From Nitrososphaerota archaeon (lineage in GTDB: Archaea > Thermoproteota > Nitrososphaeria > Nitrososphaerales > UBA57), in assembly GCA_024860875.1 (NCBI GenBank), contig JACPSZ010000017.1, positions 62,001 through 126,000 of the forward strand: DNA of 64,000 nucleotides, read 5' to 3'. Below are positions 7,570 to 60,459 of the stretch, piece by piece. The notes under the pieces are model-generated. The model saw only the letters and a list, made by a program, of their open reading frames with translations. It had not been told where the DNA came from and searched no databases. Position 1 is the stretch's first letter. Every line of letters begins with the position of its first letter. A program made the translations under genes and the position numbers.

Positions 7570-10098
7570 TTACTTTAGCTTGATTTCGAGAAGGTCCAGC
7601 CTATCGCGCAGCTTTCGGTTATCTTCCTTCAACTTATCAAGGTCGTCGCGTAGAGCCTTGAACTCCTGAGTCCTATCCCTGTCCTCGCGAATCTTTTTCA
7701 TGGCCTCTTTGGCCCTGCGCTTCACTCTTCCTTCCAATTCCCTGTCAACGAGTTTCTGCAGTTCGCTTAGCGACCTAGTGTCCCTGAACTCCTCTATGGA
7801 TGCAATGGCGTAAATCTTGACCCTCCACCAGTAGTCGTACAGCAGATTATGCAGAAAGTCCAGAACGTTGGGCTTGCCTCTTGCAAGCCTTCCAAGTATT
7901 CCTACTGCAGCTTCGCGAGCCTTCTGCGGTTTCCCGTACTTGCCCCATTCCATAGCTATGGGTATGGCTCTTTCGTCGCGAAGAGCGTCGAAGCCCTGAA
8001 ATGCACCTACCCTGATGGTTTCGTTGAACGACTCCTTCTCAAGAACCTTCTTCAGAGCGTCAAACGCCTTCTGCGACCTTGTTTTGCCCAGAGACGTTGC
8101 AGTTTCCATCTCCACAAAATAGCTCTCGTCATGCTTGAGAACCTTGATTAGAGCGTAAGCAGCCTCATCGTCCCTGAATTCTCCCAAAGCCTTAACAACG
8201 CCTCTTCTAGCTTTCGGATGTTTTACCGAGAGGCACTGCAATAGCGCTTTGAGAGCGACCTTAGAACGAATCTGGCCCAATGCCTGAGCAATCCTCGATT
8301 GGACGGCCCAGAATTTTTCCATAAGGAAGGCAGACTTTAGCTCATCAACCACGTCTTGAGTGCCCAACTTTGCAAGCTCCTGCACAACTCTTATCCTTTC
8401 AATCGGTGCTGGGCTTTCTTTCAGAATCTTCAGCAGCATTTCTTTTGGCCTTGCGAATTCAAGCGTCTTGAGTATCCAGTTAGAAGGATCGAACTCTACC
8501 GCACTCGGAGCTTCATTCATAGGGAATAGGAATGTTTGTTGCTTCTCCTTTAGGTCTATGCGGTGAACCCTTCTCTTTCTTGCAGTGATTGCAATTTCAA
8601 TTGGGAGCATGAAGACTGGAGTTTCCCCGTTTGTGGACTGGTTCTGATTTACAGTCACCTTTGCAGTCTTCGAACTTTCGTTCCATTCATAGCTTACCTT
8701 GAATTCAGGGTAGCCAGACTTTTTGAACCACTGATCGAAGAACGGCTCAAGGTTTCTTCCCGTAGCCTCCTCTATCGCCCTGCGAAAGTCTTCAGTAGTT
8801 ACATTCTGCATTTTGTGCTTTTGGACGTAATGCCTTATCGCCCTCCAAAATTGGTTGTCGCCGAGAACGAACCTCAGCATGTGCAATATCAGAGCGGCTT
8901 TGTTGTAGAGGTGCCTGTCGAAGAGCTCCACGGAGTCTTCGTAGACGTTAGTGACTATCGGCCTTCTATAACGCTCCCTGTCTTCTCCAAAGTACTCTTC
9001 TGCTTCGAGCAGCATCTTATATGCGAATTCGTCGCTGCCGAGGTGATGTTCATGGTAAAGCGCTTCAAAATACGTTGCAAAGCCTTCGTTCAGCCAAGCG
9101 TTGGCCCAGTCCCTGCAGGTTATCAGATCGCCGAACCACTGGTGTGCGAGCTCATGGGCGAGCAATTCGTCGCTGTTGTAGTCAATCATGGCCCTCTTGT
9201 CAAGCAGGCAGGAATCCGTTAGCGTAGTTGCGTTCGTATTCTCCATTCCTCCAAAGATGAAGTCAGCGACCGTCACCTGCGAATACTTAGGATAAGGGTA
9301 CTTCAAACCAAGGCTCTTGCTGAAGAACTTCATCATGTCTGGCGTATTTACAAAGGTTCTCTTGGCGTCCTCCTCCCTTCCCTTCGGAACGTAATATATT
9401 ATTGGTATCCCATCGTAGCTATCTTTCAGCTCGGAGAATTCTCCAGCAACTAGTGAAATCAGGTATACAGAATGCGGTATTTCGTGCGACCAGTGGGATG
9501 TTTTTGTCCCATTCTTGTTAATCTTCTGCGATACAAGTTTCCCGTTTGATACTGCAACGAACTTCTTTGGAACTGTTGCTATTACCTCGCTGGTCACCTT
9601 TACATTCGGATCATCAATTGAGGGAAACCAGAAGCGAGATTCGTCAGATTCGCCTTGCGTCCAAGCCTGAATAGGTCTGTTTGGGTATTCCTTGTCTGGA
9701 TAGTTGAAGAAGATGCCCCTTCTGGGCGTGCAAGAATATTCGATATTGATTGTGAATTTTTCCCCCTCTTTCATTTCCCTTCCTAGGCTTACAGATAATT
9801 TGCCATACGTCTGGCTGAACCTCAGATTCGTTCTCCCGAATTTCACGCTTTTGATGTGGAGTTCAACTGCATCAAAATCAACAGCAGAGACTCCAGAAAC
9901 TTTTGCACGAAACTGTGTAGAGACCTTTCCGTAAAGTTTCTTGTTTTTGAAATCTGGTTTTACTTCGAGTTTTACATGCTCAGCTTGGACTAGGGTATCG
10001 CGGGCGTAATGCTCTGTAGCACTGGGGAATGCAAATGTACTATGAACCGCATCTGCCATGCCGCAGTTTCCAACAACGCTGTCCTTCATGCTATACAC
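7570..10098 (-). CDS. M1-family aminopeptidase with C-terminal HEAT repeats
   Basis: HELAHQWFGDLITCRDWANAWLNEGFATYFEALY zinc site, GGMENTNATTLTD; C-terminal HEAT-like helices. Confidence 0.92.
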   Translation of the reverse strand: MYSMKDSVVGNCGMADAVHSTFAFPSATEHYARDTLVQAEHVKLEVKPDFKNKKLYGKVSTQFRAKVSGVSAVDFDAVELHIKSVKFGRTNLRFSQTYGKLSVSLGREMKEGEKFTINIEYSCTPRRGIFFNYPDKEYPNRPIQAWTQGESDESRFWFPSIDDPNVKVTSEVIATVPKKFVAVSNGKLVSQKINKNGTKTSHWSHEIPHSVYLISLVAGEFSELKDSYDGIPIIYYVPKGREEDAKRTFVNTPDMMKFFSKSLGLKYPYPKYSQVTVADFIFGGMENTNATTLTDSCLLDKRAMIDYNSDELLAHELAHQWFGDLITCRDWANAWLNEGFATYFEALYHEHHLGSDEFAYKMLLEAEEYFGEDRERYRRPIVTNVYEDSVELFDRHLYNKAALILHMLRFVLGDNQFWRAIRHYVQKHKMQNVTTEDFRRAIEEATGRNLEPFFDQWFKKSGYPEFKVSYEWNESSKTAKVTVNQNQSTNGETPVFMLPIEIAITARKRRVHRIDLKEKQQTFLFPMNEAPSAVEFDPSNWILKTLEFARPKEMLLKILKESPAPIERIRVVQELAKLGTQDVVDELKSAFLMEKFWAVQSRIAQALGQIRSKVALKALLQCLSVKHPKARRGVVKALGEFRDDEAAYALIKVLKHDESYFVEMETATSLGKTRSQKAFDALKKVLEKESFNETIRVGAFQGFDALRDERAIPIAMEWGKYGKPQKAREAAVGILGRLARGKPNVLDFLHNLLYDYWWRVKIYAIASIEEFRDTRSLSELQKLVDRELEGRVKRRAKEAMKKIREDRDRTQEFKALRDDLDKLKEDNRKLRDRLDLLEIKLK

Positions 10099-16001: not shown

Positions 16002-16252
16002 TTGAAATAATTGTTTTATTACATACTGTTAAACCTATGGTGCCAATCTACAGGAGGTTATTTCATGCCTCCAGCTAAATAAGCAAGACTTGGACGGGCC
16101 CCCAGTATGGACAAATTTATCCAAGGCCCTGAACACTAGTTGTTCAAATTCGTAGAAGTTAGTTATGGAGTGCGAGCTACCGACCCAACTGGGTAAGAAT
16201 GGATCTGGTGTTGGAACTGTCCCGAGGATTTATTAAGAGGATGATAGGGGGA

Positions 16253-16335
16253 AGCTAGGAGTGTTTCATGACTCGTATTTGTGATAGGGTCTCCCTGTCC
16301 ACCATGCTCCTAGCATCCTTTCCCTTCGATATTAT
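16253..16335. ncRNA. Candidate structured RNA element, copy 1
   Basis: P1 GCTAGGAG/CTCCTAGC encloses TGTTTCATGACTC, hairpin GATAGGG-TCT-CCCTGTC and CACCATG; loops conserved and stems changed versus 58115..58181. Strand unresolved. Confidence 0.5.
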
Positions 16336-16367: not shown

Positions 16368-16401
16368 GAAAAGAAAAGAGTTAGCCCTGCGCGAGCAAGG
16401 C
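16368..16401 (-). terminator. Hairpin plus T-tract terminator-like sequence after PQQ dehydrogenase
   Basis: Minus strand GCCTTGC-TCGC-GCAGGGC followed by TAACTCTTTTCTTTT. Confidence 0.5.
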
Positions 16402-16407
16402 CTTTGT

Positions 16408-18765
16408 TTATGCCTTCTTTCTTCTGCTGAATAGTACTCCAGATATTACTACTAGTACTACTCCTATACCAATTGCGGCATAGGATATTGGGCTGATCGT
16501 CTCCACTGTGACTGTTGGTCCTGGCACTGGTACTTCTTTGATGACTTCTTTCTCTACTGGTACTTGTACTTCCTTAATGACCTCTTTCTCTACTGGTACT
16601 TCTTTGATGACTTCCTTAATGACATCTCTTGGAACTTCCTTGATCACTTCCCTAACTTGAGGCTGTGGTATTACATCTGGAAGACCGAATGCTACAAGAG
16701 TACCATCAAGTACATTACTGACACCAGCACCGAAGAGGAATCCACCTCCACCTCCTACATGCATGAAGATCCTGTATTTGCCGTCCTTTGTCGCACCTAT
16801 CGTAGGCATTACGTTGACTGGCACACCGAAGAACTTCTCATGTAGCAGTTTACCACTTGTAGCATCTAGGAACTTCAGGTTACCGTCTGCAGCATAGACC
16901 ACGACCATGCCTCCAGTAGTCATTATGCCCCCTCTGAATGCCGCATTATCAATCTTGTATGACCATACCTTCTTTCCTGTATTGACGTCTACAGCATCTA
17001 CATTTGCATCGACGATCCATTCAGTCTGTTGTGGGAATGCTGTTCTTGGAGTGCCTCCAACACCATTGTTTCCAAATGCTCTTACAGGTCCAAAGTTATG
17101 AGTGCCCATGTTGTTGAATGTGGCTACATATACGCGGTTGCCATCGTATGCAAAGTCAGATTCAAGACAGACTGTGTAGCAGTTCTGTACAATTGGTCCT
17201 TTCTCCGGATAGTTCATCCATGGCTTGCCCATGTCTTCCTTTGTAAGCCTGCAGCAAGCTTCTCTGTCTGTTGGCCTGTTGTTAGCTCCAACACCGTAAT
17301 AGGTTTGAATGTTCTTTCCTCCTCTGAGTATGGTAGGAGGATCATACACCCAGAATGGCTTTCCAGTATTCCAGTCTAATGCATAGACAATTCCATTCTT
17401 GCACCCTTTAATGAATGCCTTCTGGCCCTGAACACTTGCTATGACGCCTACCCATGAGCAGTCATAGTCCCATAGGTCGTGCGGAATGGCTTGGAACCAC
17501 CATACTATTTTGCCCGTTCTGACATCGTATGCTGATAATCCACTTCCATGTATAGCTGGACCATATCTGTGTGTTAGATTTGTATATGGACCTTGGTCTC
17601 CCCAGCCCAATGCGACTATACCAGTTTCAGGATCAATTGGATAGGTACCCCAAACCGCTGAGCCAAAATTGGTAGCAGGGTGTAATTTTCCAAAGGTTGG
17701 CGATCCTGGCACTAGATCAATCCCATCGTTCTTTACGACATCGTCAGCCACGTCAGTACATTTTGTTGCTAGATATGTTGGTTCTCTGTCTCTTGCTGGA
17801 TAGTTGATACCCTCCAAGTATCTTGGATACTCAAAGTACCATCCATTTCCGTTTGCAGCTCTGCATTGGTTAATGGCCCAGTCAGGGTCTCCTTGAGGAC
17901 TAGGTGAAGTGAACTCCCTGTATAATCTCTTTGGATTTGCAGGGTCGCTCATGTCGAATGCAGTCACAAAGTTTCGACCTCCGGCACCACTGGCACCAGC
18001 TATAGGGAAGAACATGATATTGCCAAGGAATTGTGGAGGATGTGTACCTAAACTGGACATGAAACCGCCAGATACGGAACCTATGATTCCCTTTGTTGGA
18101 TCACCGAATTCAGCATTTGTACCGCATATCTGCTCTGTTGTCAGAGTCCATGCGGTCTTGCCAGTCTTTGCATCTACTCCATATAGGTTGCATGACCCAA
18201 GTGAACTGGTGATGAGCCAGCCTTTGTCTCTATAATAGTTGATCGCATGTCCATGGGCAAGTACCCTTTGTAACCATGGATATTTTGCATTTTCCTCCTC
18301 AGCCTTGAACTGATAACCGTATGTATTATTCCATATTAGTTTGCCTGTCCCTGCATCAATGGCAAGAATTCTCCTGTCGTTGAGTAGAACGTATGCTACG
18401 CCATCGACCACGATGACTGGGGCTCCAGAACCCATGTGTGCCGGACCCAATTGTGTTGAAAGTGTGAACCTTGTGTATGGATAAATCCACTTTGATTCAA
18501 GGTATTGGACGTTATCTTTGTTAATCTGGTTCTGGGGACTGTAGCTTCCTCCAGTTGGCTGATAGTTCACATGCTCCCAGTTGCCTGTTGGGACTGACGG
18601 AGCAGCTCCTCCTACTGGAGGACCTCCAGGATCAAAAGCACTCACAGATTTTGTTAGAGATGCCATGACTGACGAAGCTATGAGTAGAGCTGCTACCAGC
18701 AGAGTGAGGATTGTTAGTCTTTGAGTCACAACTTTCTTTTTTACCACAGAGTCGTTTGAACTCAT
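16408..18765 (-). CDS. PQQ-dependent dehydrogenase (large type) with VIKEVP-repeat stalk and C-terminal TM anchor
   Basis: Propeller repeats, QGDPDWAINQC, LWDYDCSWVG, GGIMTTGGMVVVYAADGNL; stalk VIKEVPRDVIKEVIKEVPVEKEVIKEV; TM plus RRKKA. Confidence 0.93.
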   Translation of the reverse strand: MSSNDSVVKKKVVTQRLTILTLLVAALLIASSVMASLTKSVSAFDPGGPPVGGAAPSVPTGNWEHVNYQPTGGSYSPQNQINKDNVQYLESKWIYPYTRFTLSTQLGPAHMGSGAPVIVVDGVAYVLLNDRRILAIDAGTGKLIWNNTYGYQFKAEEENAKYPWLQRVLAHGHAINYYRDKGWLITSSLGSCNLYGVDAKTGKTAWTLTTEQICGTNAEFGDPTKGIIGSVSGGFMSSLGTHPPQFLGNIMFFPIAGASGAGGRNFVTAFDMSDPANPKRLYREFTSPSPQGDPDWAINQCRAANGNGWYFEYPRYLEGINYPARDREPTYLATKCTDVADDVVKNDGIDLVPGSPTFGKLHPATNFGSAVWGTYPIDPETGIVALGWGDQGPYTNLTHRYGPAIHGSGLSAYDVRTGKIVWWFQAIPHDLWDYDCSWVGVIASVQGQKAFIKGCKNGIVYALDWNTGKPFWVYDPPTILRGGKNIQTYYGVGANNRPTDREACCRLTKEDMGKPWMNYPEKGPIVQNCYTVCLESDFAYDGNRVYVATFNNMGTHNFGPVRAFGNNGVGGTPRTAFPQQTEWIVDANVDAVDVNTGKKVWSYKIDNAAFRGGIMTTGGMVVVYAADGNLKFLDATSGKLLHEKFFGVPVNVMPTIGATKDGKYRIFMHVGGGGGFLFGAGVSNVLDGTLVAFGLPDVIPQPQVREVIKEVPRDVIKEVIKEVPVEKEVIKEVQVPVEKEVIKEVPVPGPTVTVETISPISYAAIGIGVVLVVISGVLFSRRKKA

Positions 18766-58090: not shown

Positions 58091-58114
58091 CCTTGATGAG
58101 AGTGAATTAGGGAT

Positions 58115-58181
58115 GGAGGGAAGTGTGTTTCATGACTCTAAAGTGTCCATGGATCTCCCATGGCACCATGCACCTACCTCC
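58115..58181. ncRNA. Candidate structured RNA element, copy 2
   Basis: GGAGGgaaGTG/CACctaCCTCC encloses TGTTTCATGACTC, hairpin CCATGG-ATCTC-CCATGG and CACCATG; same loops as 16253..16335. Confidence 0.5.
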
Positions 58182-58254
58182 GTCTAGTCAATTGATAGAA
58201 ATTCCTCTAAATAAGCAGGATGGATCATTTGTCTATTTGCAAGAATTATGGAGG

Positions 58255-58271
58255 GCCCTCCATTAGAGGGC
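58255..58271 (-). terminator. Hairpin GCCCTC-TAATG-GAGGGC abutting PQQ dehydrogenase stop codon
   Basis: Perfect 6-bp stem right after the stop. Confidence 0.35.
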
Positions 58272-58272
58272 T

Positions 58273-60459
58273 TTATGCCTTCTTCCTTCTGGTGAATAGT
58301 ACTCCGGCCACCACTATGAGAATTAGTCCCACGCCTACTACAGCGTAAGAGATTGGACTTACAGTCTCCACCGTTACTTCCTTCACGACTTCTTTTGGAA
58401 CCTCTTTTATCACTTCTTTGGGTACTTCTTTGATAACTTCCTTGACGACTGGTTCAGGTATTTTATCCGGCAGACCTAGGGCAACAAGAGTACCATCAAC
58501 AGGTGATGCCACGGCAGGTCCTAGCACAAGACCTCCGCCACCGCCAACATGCAGGAAGATCTTCATCTTTCCATTTTTGTCTGCCCCTGTTGTTGGCATC
58601 ACATTCACAGGTATGCCAAAGAACCTCTCATTGAGGAGTTTCCCAGTCTCCGCATCGTAGAATCTCAAGTTTCCATCACCAGCATAGGCCAAAACCATTC
58701 CTCCAGTTACGCTTAGTCCTCCTCTGAACCCGAAACCGTCAATTCTGCTGGTCCACTTCGACTTGCCAGTATTGACATCGACGGCCCAAATATTCGTGTT
58801 TGTCCTGTCAGCGTATTTTGGATCAGCGTAGTGTCTTTGGACGTTACCTTGATTACCAAAGTCCCTAACCGGCGTGATTGTTAGAGTTCTGGGTTCGTTT
58901 AATGAGGCTACATAGACGTACTTGCCGTCATAGGCTATGTCCGATTCTATGCAGAATGTGTAGCAGATGCTAAATAGAGGAGTGGTCTTTGGATAGTGAG
59001 GCCATGGTTTGGCCATATCTTGTTTTGTCATTCTGCAACAGGCATCGGGACCTCTCGGATTGTTATTTTGATCCACTCCGTAGTTAAGTTCAGTATTCCT
59101 CACTGTTGTAGGAGGATCAAATACCCAGAATGGCTTTCCATTCGTTGCGTCGAGTGCAAATACCTGTCCGCTCTTGCAACTCTTTATGTACGCTTTCTTT
59201 CCTTGCACCTGTCCTATAATGCCGGCCCATGAGCAGTCATAGTCCCACAGGTCATGAGGTACTGATTGGAACCACCACACAAGCTTCCCTGTTCTAACAT
59301 CGTGTGCAGTATAGCCGCTACCATGCAATCCTGGCCCATATTTGTGTGTCATGTTTGGATAAGGTCCTTGGTCTCCCCAGCCCAAGTATACAATTCCTAA
59401 TTCAGGATCAAGAGGATAGTTACCCCATACTGCAGAACCATGATTGGTAGCTGTATGCATCTTTCCGAATGTTTTAGACCCTGGTACTAGATCCATTCCA
59501 TCGTTCTTTACAACGTCATCAGCAACATCCGTGCATTTTGTCGCGAGGTATGTTGGTTCTCTATCCCTTGCCGGATGATTTATGCCCTCCAGATATCTCG
59601 GATACTCGAAGTACCAGCCATTGCCATTTGCAGCTTTACATTGGTTGATTGCCCAGTCAGGATCGCCTTGAGCTGGAGGCGCCGTAAAGACCCTGTAAAG
59701 CCTCTTAGGGTTCTGAGGATCACTCATATCGAATCCCGTTACGAATGATCTTCCTCCTGATCCACTTCCTCCCGCTACCGGGAAGAACATTATGTTACCC
59801 AGAAACTTCGGTGGATGAGAACCTGCTCCAGACATGAATCCTTGATTACCTAAAGAGCCGACGATTCTCTTCGCAGGATCACCGAACTCCGCATTCGTAC
59901 CGCATATCTGCTCTGTCGTTAGCGTCCAGGCAGTTTTCCCGGTTTTTGCATCTACCGCATAGAGCTCGCAGGCTCCCATGCTATTGGTTATAAGCCAGCC
60001 CTTATCACGATAGTAGTTTATCGCATGCACATGGGCACCAGCTCTTGAAAGCCATGGGTAAGTTGCTATTTGCTTTGCGGAATCGAACACAGTGCCGTAG
60101 GTGTTATTCCACAATAACTTGCCTGTAGCCGCATCTATAGCGAGTATTCTTCTATCATTCATGGCTACATACAAAGTGCCGTCGACGATTATTACAGGAG
60201 CACCGGTACCAAAGCCTTGTCCAATCTTTGCGTCCGGAGGAGAACGAACATAGGGATAAATCCACTTTGTTTCCAAATGTTGCACATTATCTTTTGTAAT
60301 CTGAGTTTGTGGATTGTAGCTCCCACCTAACTGAGCCGAATTGATAAATTCCCAGTTTACGCCTTGAAGCTGTTGGGCCTGTGCCATTGGCAGGAATGCG
60401 GCAGGGATGAGTAGAACTCCTACGATTAACAGACTCGATATTAACATATTGCGAGCCAT
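58273..60459 (-). CDS. PQQ-dependent dehydrogenase (large type) with VIKEVP stalk and C-terminal TM anchor
   Basis: Close paralog of 16408..18765; signal peptide; PPAQGDPDWAINQ; stalk VVKEVIKEVPKEVIKEVPKEVVKEV; TM plus TRRKKA. Confidence 0.93.
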   Translation of the reverse strand: MARNMLISSLLIVGVLLIPAAFLPMAQAQQLQGVNWEFINSAQLGGSYNPQTQITKDNVQHLETKWIYPYVRSPPDAKIGQGFGTGAPVIIVDGTLYVAMNDRRILAIDAATGKLLWNNTYGTVFDSAKQIATYPWLSRAGAHVHAINYYRDKGWLITNSMGACELYAVDAKTGKTAWTLTTEQICGTNAEFGDPAKRIVGSLGNQGFMSGAGSHPPKFLGNIMFFPVAGGSGSGGRSFVTGFDMSDPQNPKRLYRVFTAPPAQGDPDWAINQCKAANGNGWYFEYPRYLEGINHPARDREPTYLATKCTDVADDVVKNDGMDLVPGSKTFGKMHTATNHGSAVWGNYPLDPELGIVYLGWGDQGPYPNMTHKYGPGLHGSGYTAHDVRTGKLVWWFQSVPHDLWDYDCSWAGIIGQVQGKKAYIKSCKSGQVFALDATNGKPFWVFDPPTTVRNTELNYGVDQNNNPRGPDACCRMTKQDMAKPWPHYPKTTPLFSICYTFCIESDIAYDGKYVYVASLNEPRTLTITPVRDFGNQGNVQRHYADPKYADRTNTNIWAVDVNTGKSKWTSRIDGFGFRGGLSVTGGMVLAYAGDGNLRFYDAETGKLLNERFFGIPVNVMPTTGADKNGKMKIFLHVGGGGGLVLGPAVASPVDGTLVALGLPDKIPEPVVKEVIKEVPKEVIKEVPKEVVKEVTVETVSPISYAVVGVGLILIVVAGVLFTRRKKA

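Follow-up and report, generated by a model that had tools for sequence, protein, structure and literature searches.

A probable new class of three-way-junction RNA in viral contigs and Nitrososphaeria-like archaea

The stretch of 64,000 nucleotides of Nitrososphaerota DNA that we have analyzed (the window) carries two copies of a small structured RNA, which probably represents an undescribed and widespread class found in viruses of bacterial type and in some Nitrososphaeria-like archaea. Such a class would be either a new ribozyme or an RNA bound by a host factor, and in this archaeal family it would form part of the PQQ-dehydrogenase regulon. As anticipated in the original prediction, the element matches no known family: Rfam 15 at the gathering threshold gave no match in the window or in 13 viral loci, searches of single stretches at relaxed E-values returned chance matches only, and we found no published description in the open-access literature.

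Fold, covariation and strand of the element

The element is a three-way-junction RNA of ~60-105 nt with the consensus P1 - (C)AUGGUG - P3 (GG-GAGA-N-CC) - AC - optional P2 - (C)AUGAAACA - P1', the optional helix P2 sitting between P3 and AUGAAACA. Its junction strands are ~6-7, 2-3 and 8-9 nt long, and ~24 positions, in the junction and the loop, are near-invariant, while the helices vary freely. All copies of the source genome (G000), each read together with its genome stretch, keep one architecture with variable helices, which on the minus strand is P1 - CAUGGUG - P3 - AC - optional P2 - GAGUCAUGAAACA - P1'. In the archaeal copies, P3 has six pairs and a GAGAN loop. The consensus of a 92-copy alignment is nested and closed by P1. 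An inner CAUG/CAUG pairing is not claimed, as one side is invariant and the pairing is broken in L076, L079, L028:9493 and L030:6069.

Both window sites were recovered at their predicted positions and with the predicted blocks. Copy 1 occupies 16246..16324 on the minus strand (5' end 16324, 3' end 16246). In the order of the RNA, it comprises the P1 5' arm GGATGCTAGGAG (16307..16318, columns 7-18 of alignment A1, pairing with 16250-16261), the junction strand CATGGTG (16300..16306, near-invariant in alignments A1 and A3), the covarying P3 hairpin GACAGG-GAGAC-CCTATC (16283..16299), the near-invariant junction strand ATGAAACA (16262..16269), whose core-mutant pattern ATGACACA gave no structured match, and the P1 3' arm CTCCTAGCTTCC (16250..16261), paired with the 5' arm in A1. 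Copy 2 occupies 58110..58188, also on the minus strand (5' end 58188, 3' end 58110), with the P1 5' arm CGGAGGTAGGTG at 58171..58182 (A1 columns 7-18), CATGGTG at 58164..58170 and ATGAAACA at 58126..58133 (both conserved in A1 and A3), the P3 hairpin CCATGG-GAGAT-CCATGG at 58147..58163 and the P1 3' arm CACTTCCCTCCA at 58114..58125, these last two with covariation in A1. With cmsearch, covariance model R1 scored copy 1 at 82.2 bits (E 2.7e-17; fold z-score -3.0) and copy 2 at 81 bits (E 5.4e-17), both on the minus strand; the window copies are included in models R1 and R2, and the E-values come from a shortened calibration.

Conserved blocks with compensatory stems had been proposed from two copies, and the covariation became very strong when homologs were added, first 20 archaeal copies and then 92. 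In a sequence-only MAFFT alignment of the 20 archaeal copies, 93.4% of the pairing cells were compatible with pairing vs. 77.9% after shuffling, and 11 pairs had double-sided changes. The covariation score was 0.453 vs. 0.187 ± 0.017, a value reached in none of 500 shuffles, and structures slid along the alignment scored at most 0.14. With the 92 archaeal and viral copies, double-sided changes were present at 12 of the 12 P1 pairs and five of the six P3 pairs, and the score was 0.727 vs. 0.156. Because this larger alignment had been fitted to the model, we have added an alignment-free control, in which the arms were exchanged between 51 non-redundant viral copies. P1 formed a mean of 7.2 bp with its own arms vs. 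3.0 with swapped arms (maximum 3.7 in 200 trials), and P3 behaved likewise. P2 reached 3.8 vs. 3.0 ± 0.17 in the control, weaker yet above it. P1 and P3 are hence established by strong covariation and P2 by a weaker signal. The fold z-scores of single copies ranged from -1.8 to -5.5.

The structured RNA of the original prediction stood, although not on the strand on which it had been folded. On that first-read (plus) strand, P1 contains 17 A.C vs. 3 G.U cells; on the minus strand, G.U exceeds A.C by 40 to 10 in the 20 archaeal copies and by 76 to 22 in the 92 copies that include the viral ones. This wobble bias assigns the RNA of the window to the minus strand, in the same sense as the dehydrogenases. 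The pairs first named P2 correspond to P3, one arm of the three-way junction, the true P2 being the further optional helix.

Archaeal copies, PQQ dehydrogenases and candidate promoters

What had been taken for a two-copy element turned out to be far more numerous. The covariance models built here find about 20 copies (range 17-20) in G000, and there are many more elsewhere. The 13-mer TGTTTCATGACTC alone has 15 exact copies in this 1.67 Mb genome, and the pattern read backwards has none. The search of related genomes that had been suggested gave further copies in the same genus (G001, 5-6), in the same family (G003, 8) and in three other families of the order (G036, 2; G012, 1; G067, 2), and none in the remaining genomes drawn. 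The flanks of the G036 copy are nearly identical to those in G003; mis-binning of the contig is therefore possible, and this copy is treated with caution.

In the window, the copies begin 83 and 84 nt beyond the stop codons at 16408 and 58273, in line with the predicted distance of roughly 70-90 nt. The genes ending there encode PQQ dehydrogenases of 785 aa (16408..18765, minus strand; Pfam PF01011, E 7.8e-35) and 728 aa (58273..60459, minus strand; PF01011, E 1.4e-38). On the same strand, a hairpin with a T-rich tract, of a kind common after the dehydrogenases read, lies at 16368..16402 before copy 1, and a hairpin GCCCTC-TAAT-GGAGGGC at 58255..58271 after the dehydrogenase stop, before copy 2. 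About 14 of the 20 G000 copies are located just 3' of PQQ dehydrogenases and in sense with them, a count that includes neighbors that are a pseudogene or fragments; the genome holds roughly 30 or more such genes. In heterotrophic marine relatives among the thaumarchaea, each genome has 4-19 PQQ dehydrogenases, and these belong to the genes that are expressed most strongly (PMC7300363). The element types do not track dehydrogenase similarity.

Some features of these loci deserve mention on their own. At most of the dehydrogenase 3' ends read, a T-rich tract comes after a short GC hairpin, an arrangement that resembles an intrinsic-type terminator in an archaeon. L026 (5928-16326) holds four tandem PQQ dehydrogenases in the same orientation, with a copy of the element after each of the first three. 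Tandem pairs or decayed second copies are found in L028, L030, L034, L070, L151, L273 and L294, in archaea and viral contigs, and a chimeric copy in L035 (G001:C1, locus position 9487) keeps the 3' P1 arm and the GAGTCATGAAACA block, the rest being lost. By eye, a tRNA-like 3' end lies on the opposite strand just downstream of the archaeal copy in L024, L025 and L079. Among type-B copies (L025, L029, L031, L034 and L039), a second small hairpin, GGAY-AAAT-RUCC, with apparent compensatory changes, separates the dehydrogenase terminator from the TATA box. In L027, a PQQ dehydrogenase (G000:C7:166411-166962) has decayed, with four in-frame stops, next to an intact downstream element, which suggests that retention of the RNA does not depend on the protein.

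Upstream of the archaeal copies, all ten TATA-like boxes scoring at least 6.2 fall 39-47 nt before the core, some of the ten upstream regions being related to each other by descent. From this spacing, transcription would start at P1. Copy 2 has such a box, CTTATTTA (58208..58215, minus strand), 45 nt before its core and within the position cluster, and from there transcription would begin close to the 5' end of P1; copy 1 is without a good TATA box. Three copies (L036, L037 and L028:9493) begin 13-15 nt after the dehydrogenase stop, a gap with no room for a promoter of their own, so these must be co-transcribed. The two alternatives first offered, a 3'UTR element or an independent small RNA, are thus both represented, by sense copies 3' of dehydrogenases and by the ten with their own TATA box ~25 nt before P1.

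A palindromic operator-like box, TTCGWCAnnTGWCG(n)AA (TTCGACAnnTGACGAA), precedes the core by 81-82 nt in six free-standing copies (L038, L060 twice, L072, L074 and L079). The same box lies 68-71 nt upstream of the start codon in five of the dehydrogenase genes measured and 218 nt before the start of one further dehydrogenase; the dehydrogenase-side boxes are those of L036:6995, L037:7524, L060, L072:6343, L116:4626, L117:3786 and L128. Genome-wide in G000, G001 and G003, most exact matches to the box lie upstream of a dehydrogenase or of the element. Through this common box, the RNA of this archaeal family is connected with the dehydrogenase regulon.

We have weighed these data against a cis-acting 3'UTR module that would protect or mark mRNA 3' ends, as an exonuclease block or a protein-binding site. 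The position 3' of dehydrogenases with highly expressed relatives agrees with such a role, as does the viral placement, with the core at most 70 nt (typically 8-36 nt) past a co-oriented ORF stop in 25 of the 34 viral copies in which P1 is clear. A simple blocking hairpin, however, needs no invariant junction, and several copies are free-standing with a putative promoter of their own. Moreover, most dehydrogenases read end in a hairpin and T-tract whether or not the element is present, so that most archaeal copies lie beyond the gene's own 3' end structure. Neither is the element itself an intrinsic terminator, since no U-tract follows P1' (T fraction past P1' of 0.12-0.32, no peak, in the viral copies). 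On balance, we regard the 3'UTR module as rather unlikely.

Viral copies and comparison with known RNA families

The element is present in many viral contigs, many of which carry typical phage genes. We have sampled IMG/VR with the exact core pattern ATGGTGN{2,9}GGGAGAN{18,48}ATGAAACA, by which the core blocks, though not the helices, are conserved by construction. It gave at least 120 matches, vs. 12 for the reversed pattern. Among the matches listed, the wild-type core was accompanied by a full P3 in 97 of 109 distinct viral matches, the reversed core in none of nine, and the GGGAAA and ATGACACA variant patterns (44 and 31 distinct viral matches) in none of 75. When 80 viral loci were scored with the archaeal model, 75 matches had E <1, and the E-values of most of them lay between 1e-16 and 1e-4. 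A strict archaeal pattern had no match in viral contigs, because the phage copies are without GAGUC; its one match in genome contigs, in Streptomyces, failed the model (13.4 bits), and blastn against INPHARED gave only chance matches of 18-28 nt that the model rejects.

Around the viral copies lie phage-type genes (Erf, SSB, replication initiator, helicase, endolysin, endonuclease VII). Within 6 kb, the viral loci share no common gene family, the largest cluster covering 22 of 144 loci. Where the phage copies follow stop codons, they have no evident promoter of their own. Co-oriented tRNA genes directly flank the element, beside or on both sides of it, in phages L173, L436, L437, L445 and L448; among 53 viral loci, tRNA genes directly adjoin it in several and not in most.

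This placement brings to mind the PeSL cassettes of T4-type phages, a simple stem-loop after a stop codon, in some cases followed by a promoter. The element shares the position past a stop but adds an invariant junction and is without the terminator U-tract. Integron attC sites are likewise structured, 3' of genes and sometimes in gene-plus-element arrays; the strand bias of the element is RNA-like, however, and by eye its core is unlike the GTTRRRY boxes of attC. A mobile or recombination DNA element acting through single-strand folding (attC-like, REP/MITE-like or an IS end) would account for the multiple copies, the tandem gene-plus-element repeats of L026, the independence from dehydrogenase similarity and the patchy taxonomic spread. 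We nevertheless consider it improbable: the P1 arms differ yet stay complementary, unlike those of dispersed transposon copies, the wobble bias favors one RNA strand, the TATA box is placed to start at P1, and neither an integrase family nor another recombinase or transposase is linked to the element in the 144 viral loci.

RAGATH motifs are, like the element, orphan structured RNAs of phage type, and RAGATH-18 RNAs are reported to be guide RNAs of IS607 TnpBs (PMC11061315). This precedent, and an invariant junction that would suit ligand binding, could speak for a guide-RNA scaffold or a 3'-placed metabolite-sensing, riboswitch-like aptamer. But no RAGATH family matches the element, and no RNA-guided nuclease family of the TnpB/IscB kind was found adjacent to it, no gene family recurring in more than 22 of the 144 viral loci within 6 kb. 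Together with unrelated neighbor genes, no 5'UTR placement and no expression platform, this makes such a role very improbable. Inspection by eye did not support two further ideas, antisense pairing to the starts of dehydrogenases and mimicry of ribosomal proteins.

The main rival to the reading that we prefer sees the element as a small self-cleaving ribozyme of a new class, processing transcripts after stops or beside tRNAs, which is possible but somewhat doubtful. It would explain the compact junction fold with ~24 near-invariant positions and helices free to vary, the sporadic, phage-rich distribution independent of gene context, and the tandem pairs. Sites past stops and in tRNA clusters also recall those reported for the HDV-like theta ribozymes (PMC10879173). 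Theta ribozymes, small structured RNAs beside tRNA genes in gut phages, resemble those phage copies of the element that adjoin such genes; their fold, however, is a double pseudoknot, whereas ours is a plain nested three-way junction without a match to the HDV-like models of Rfam. The hammerhead likewise has three helices, a conserved junction and members in phages and archaea, but its core CUGANGA...GAAA...UH is missing, the aligned cores being AUGGUG, AC and AUGAAACA. No Rfam ribozyme model, the hammerhead included, gave a match. Several ribozyme classes have circularly permuted versions. For the element, a permuted pattern hit 39 stretches, with full P3 pairing only in tandem or normal copies, and no permuted version was found. 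Finally, the TATA-bearing archaeal copies would start exactly at P1, where self-cleavage is without evident purpose.

A candidate non-coding RNA and its meaning

Our preferred reading, held tentatively, is a new family of discrete, stable non-coding RNA, made from the minus strand in the window and acting through its invariant junction. Many archaeal copies would be transcribed from a TATA promoter of their own, which would make the 5' end of the RNA that of P1; others may be released from the 3' ends of dehydrogenase transcripts, and the phage copies from mRNA 3' ends or tRNA clusters. The invariant core (AUGGUG / GGGAGANCC / AC / AUGAAACA) could then be the binding site of a conserved host factor, and in this archaeal family a shared operator may wire the RNA into the PQQ-dehydrogenase regulon.

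The discrete-RNA reading is supported by the covariation, the strand bias, the core constraint, the TATA positions, the operator-like box, the tRNA-like placement and the lack of a partner gene. That the junction is the active part is suggested by invariant single-stranded blocks between free helices, together with the patchy spread, a placement like that of tRNAs and, again, the lack of a partner gene. A promoter set at P1, as in the archaea, speaks more for a discrete stable RNA than for self-cleavage, while the position of the phage copies and the tRNA clusters keep the ribozyme alive. Counting against a discrete RNA are the short gaps in L036, L037 and L028:9493, the lack of a good TATA box at copy 1 and the phage copies with no obvious promoter.

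It is rare for a small structured RNA with an invariant core to occur in viruses as well as archaea, and earlier cases turned out to be ribozymes, riboswitches or guide RNAs. The present one comes with a ready consensus, more than 100 candidate members and a precise prediction of the transcript start. The putative shared operator may, in addition, provide a regulatory handle on the large PQQ-dehydrogenase families of non-ammonia-oxidizing, thaumarchaea-like lineages.
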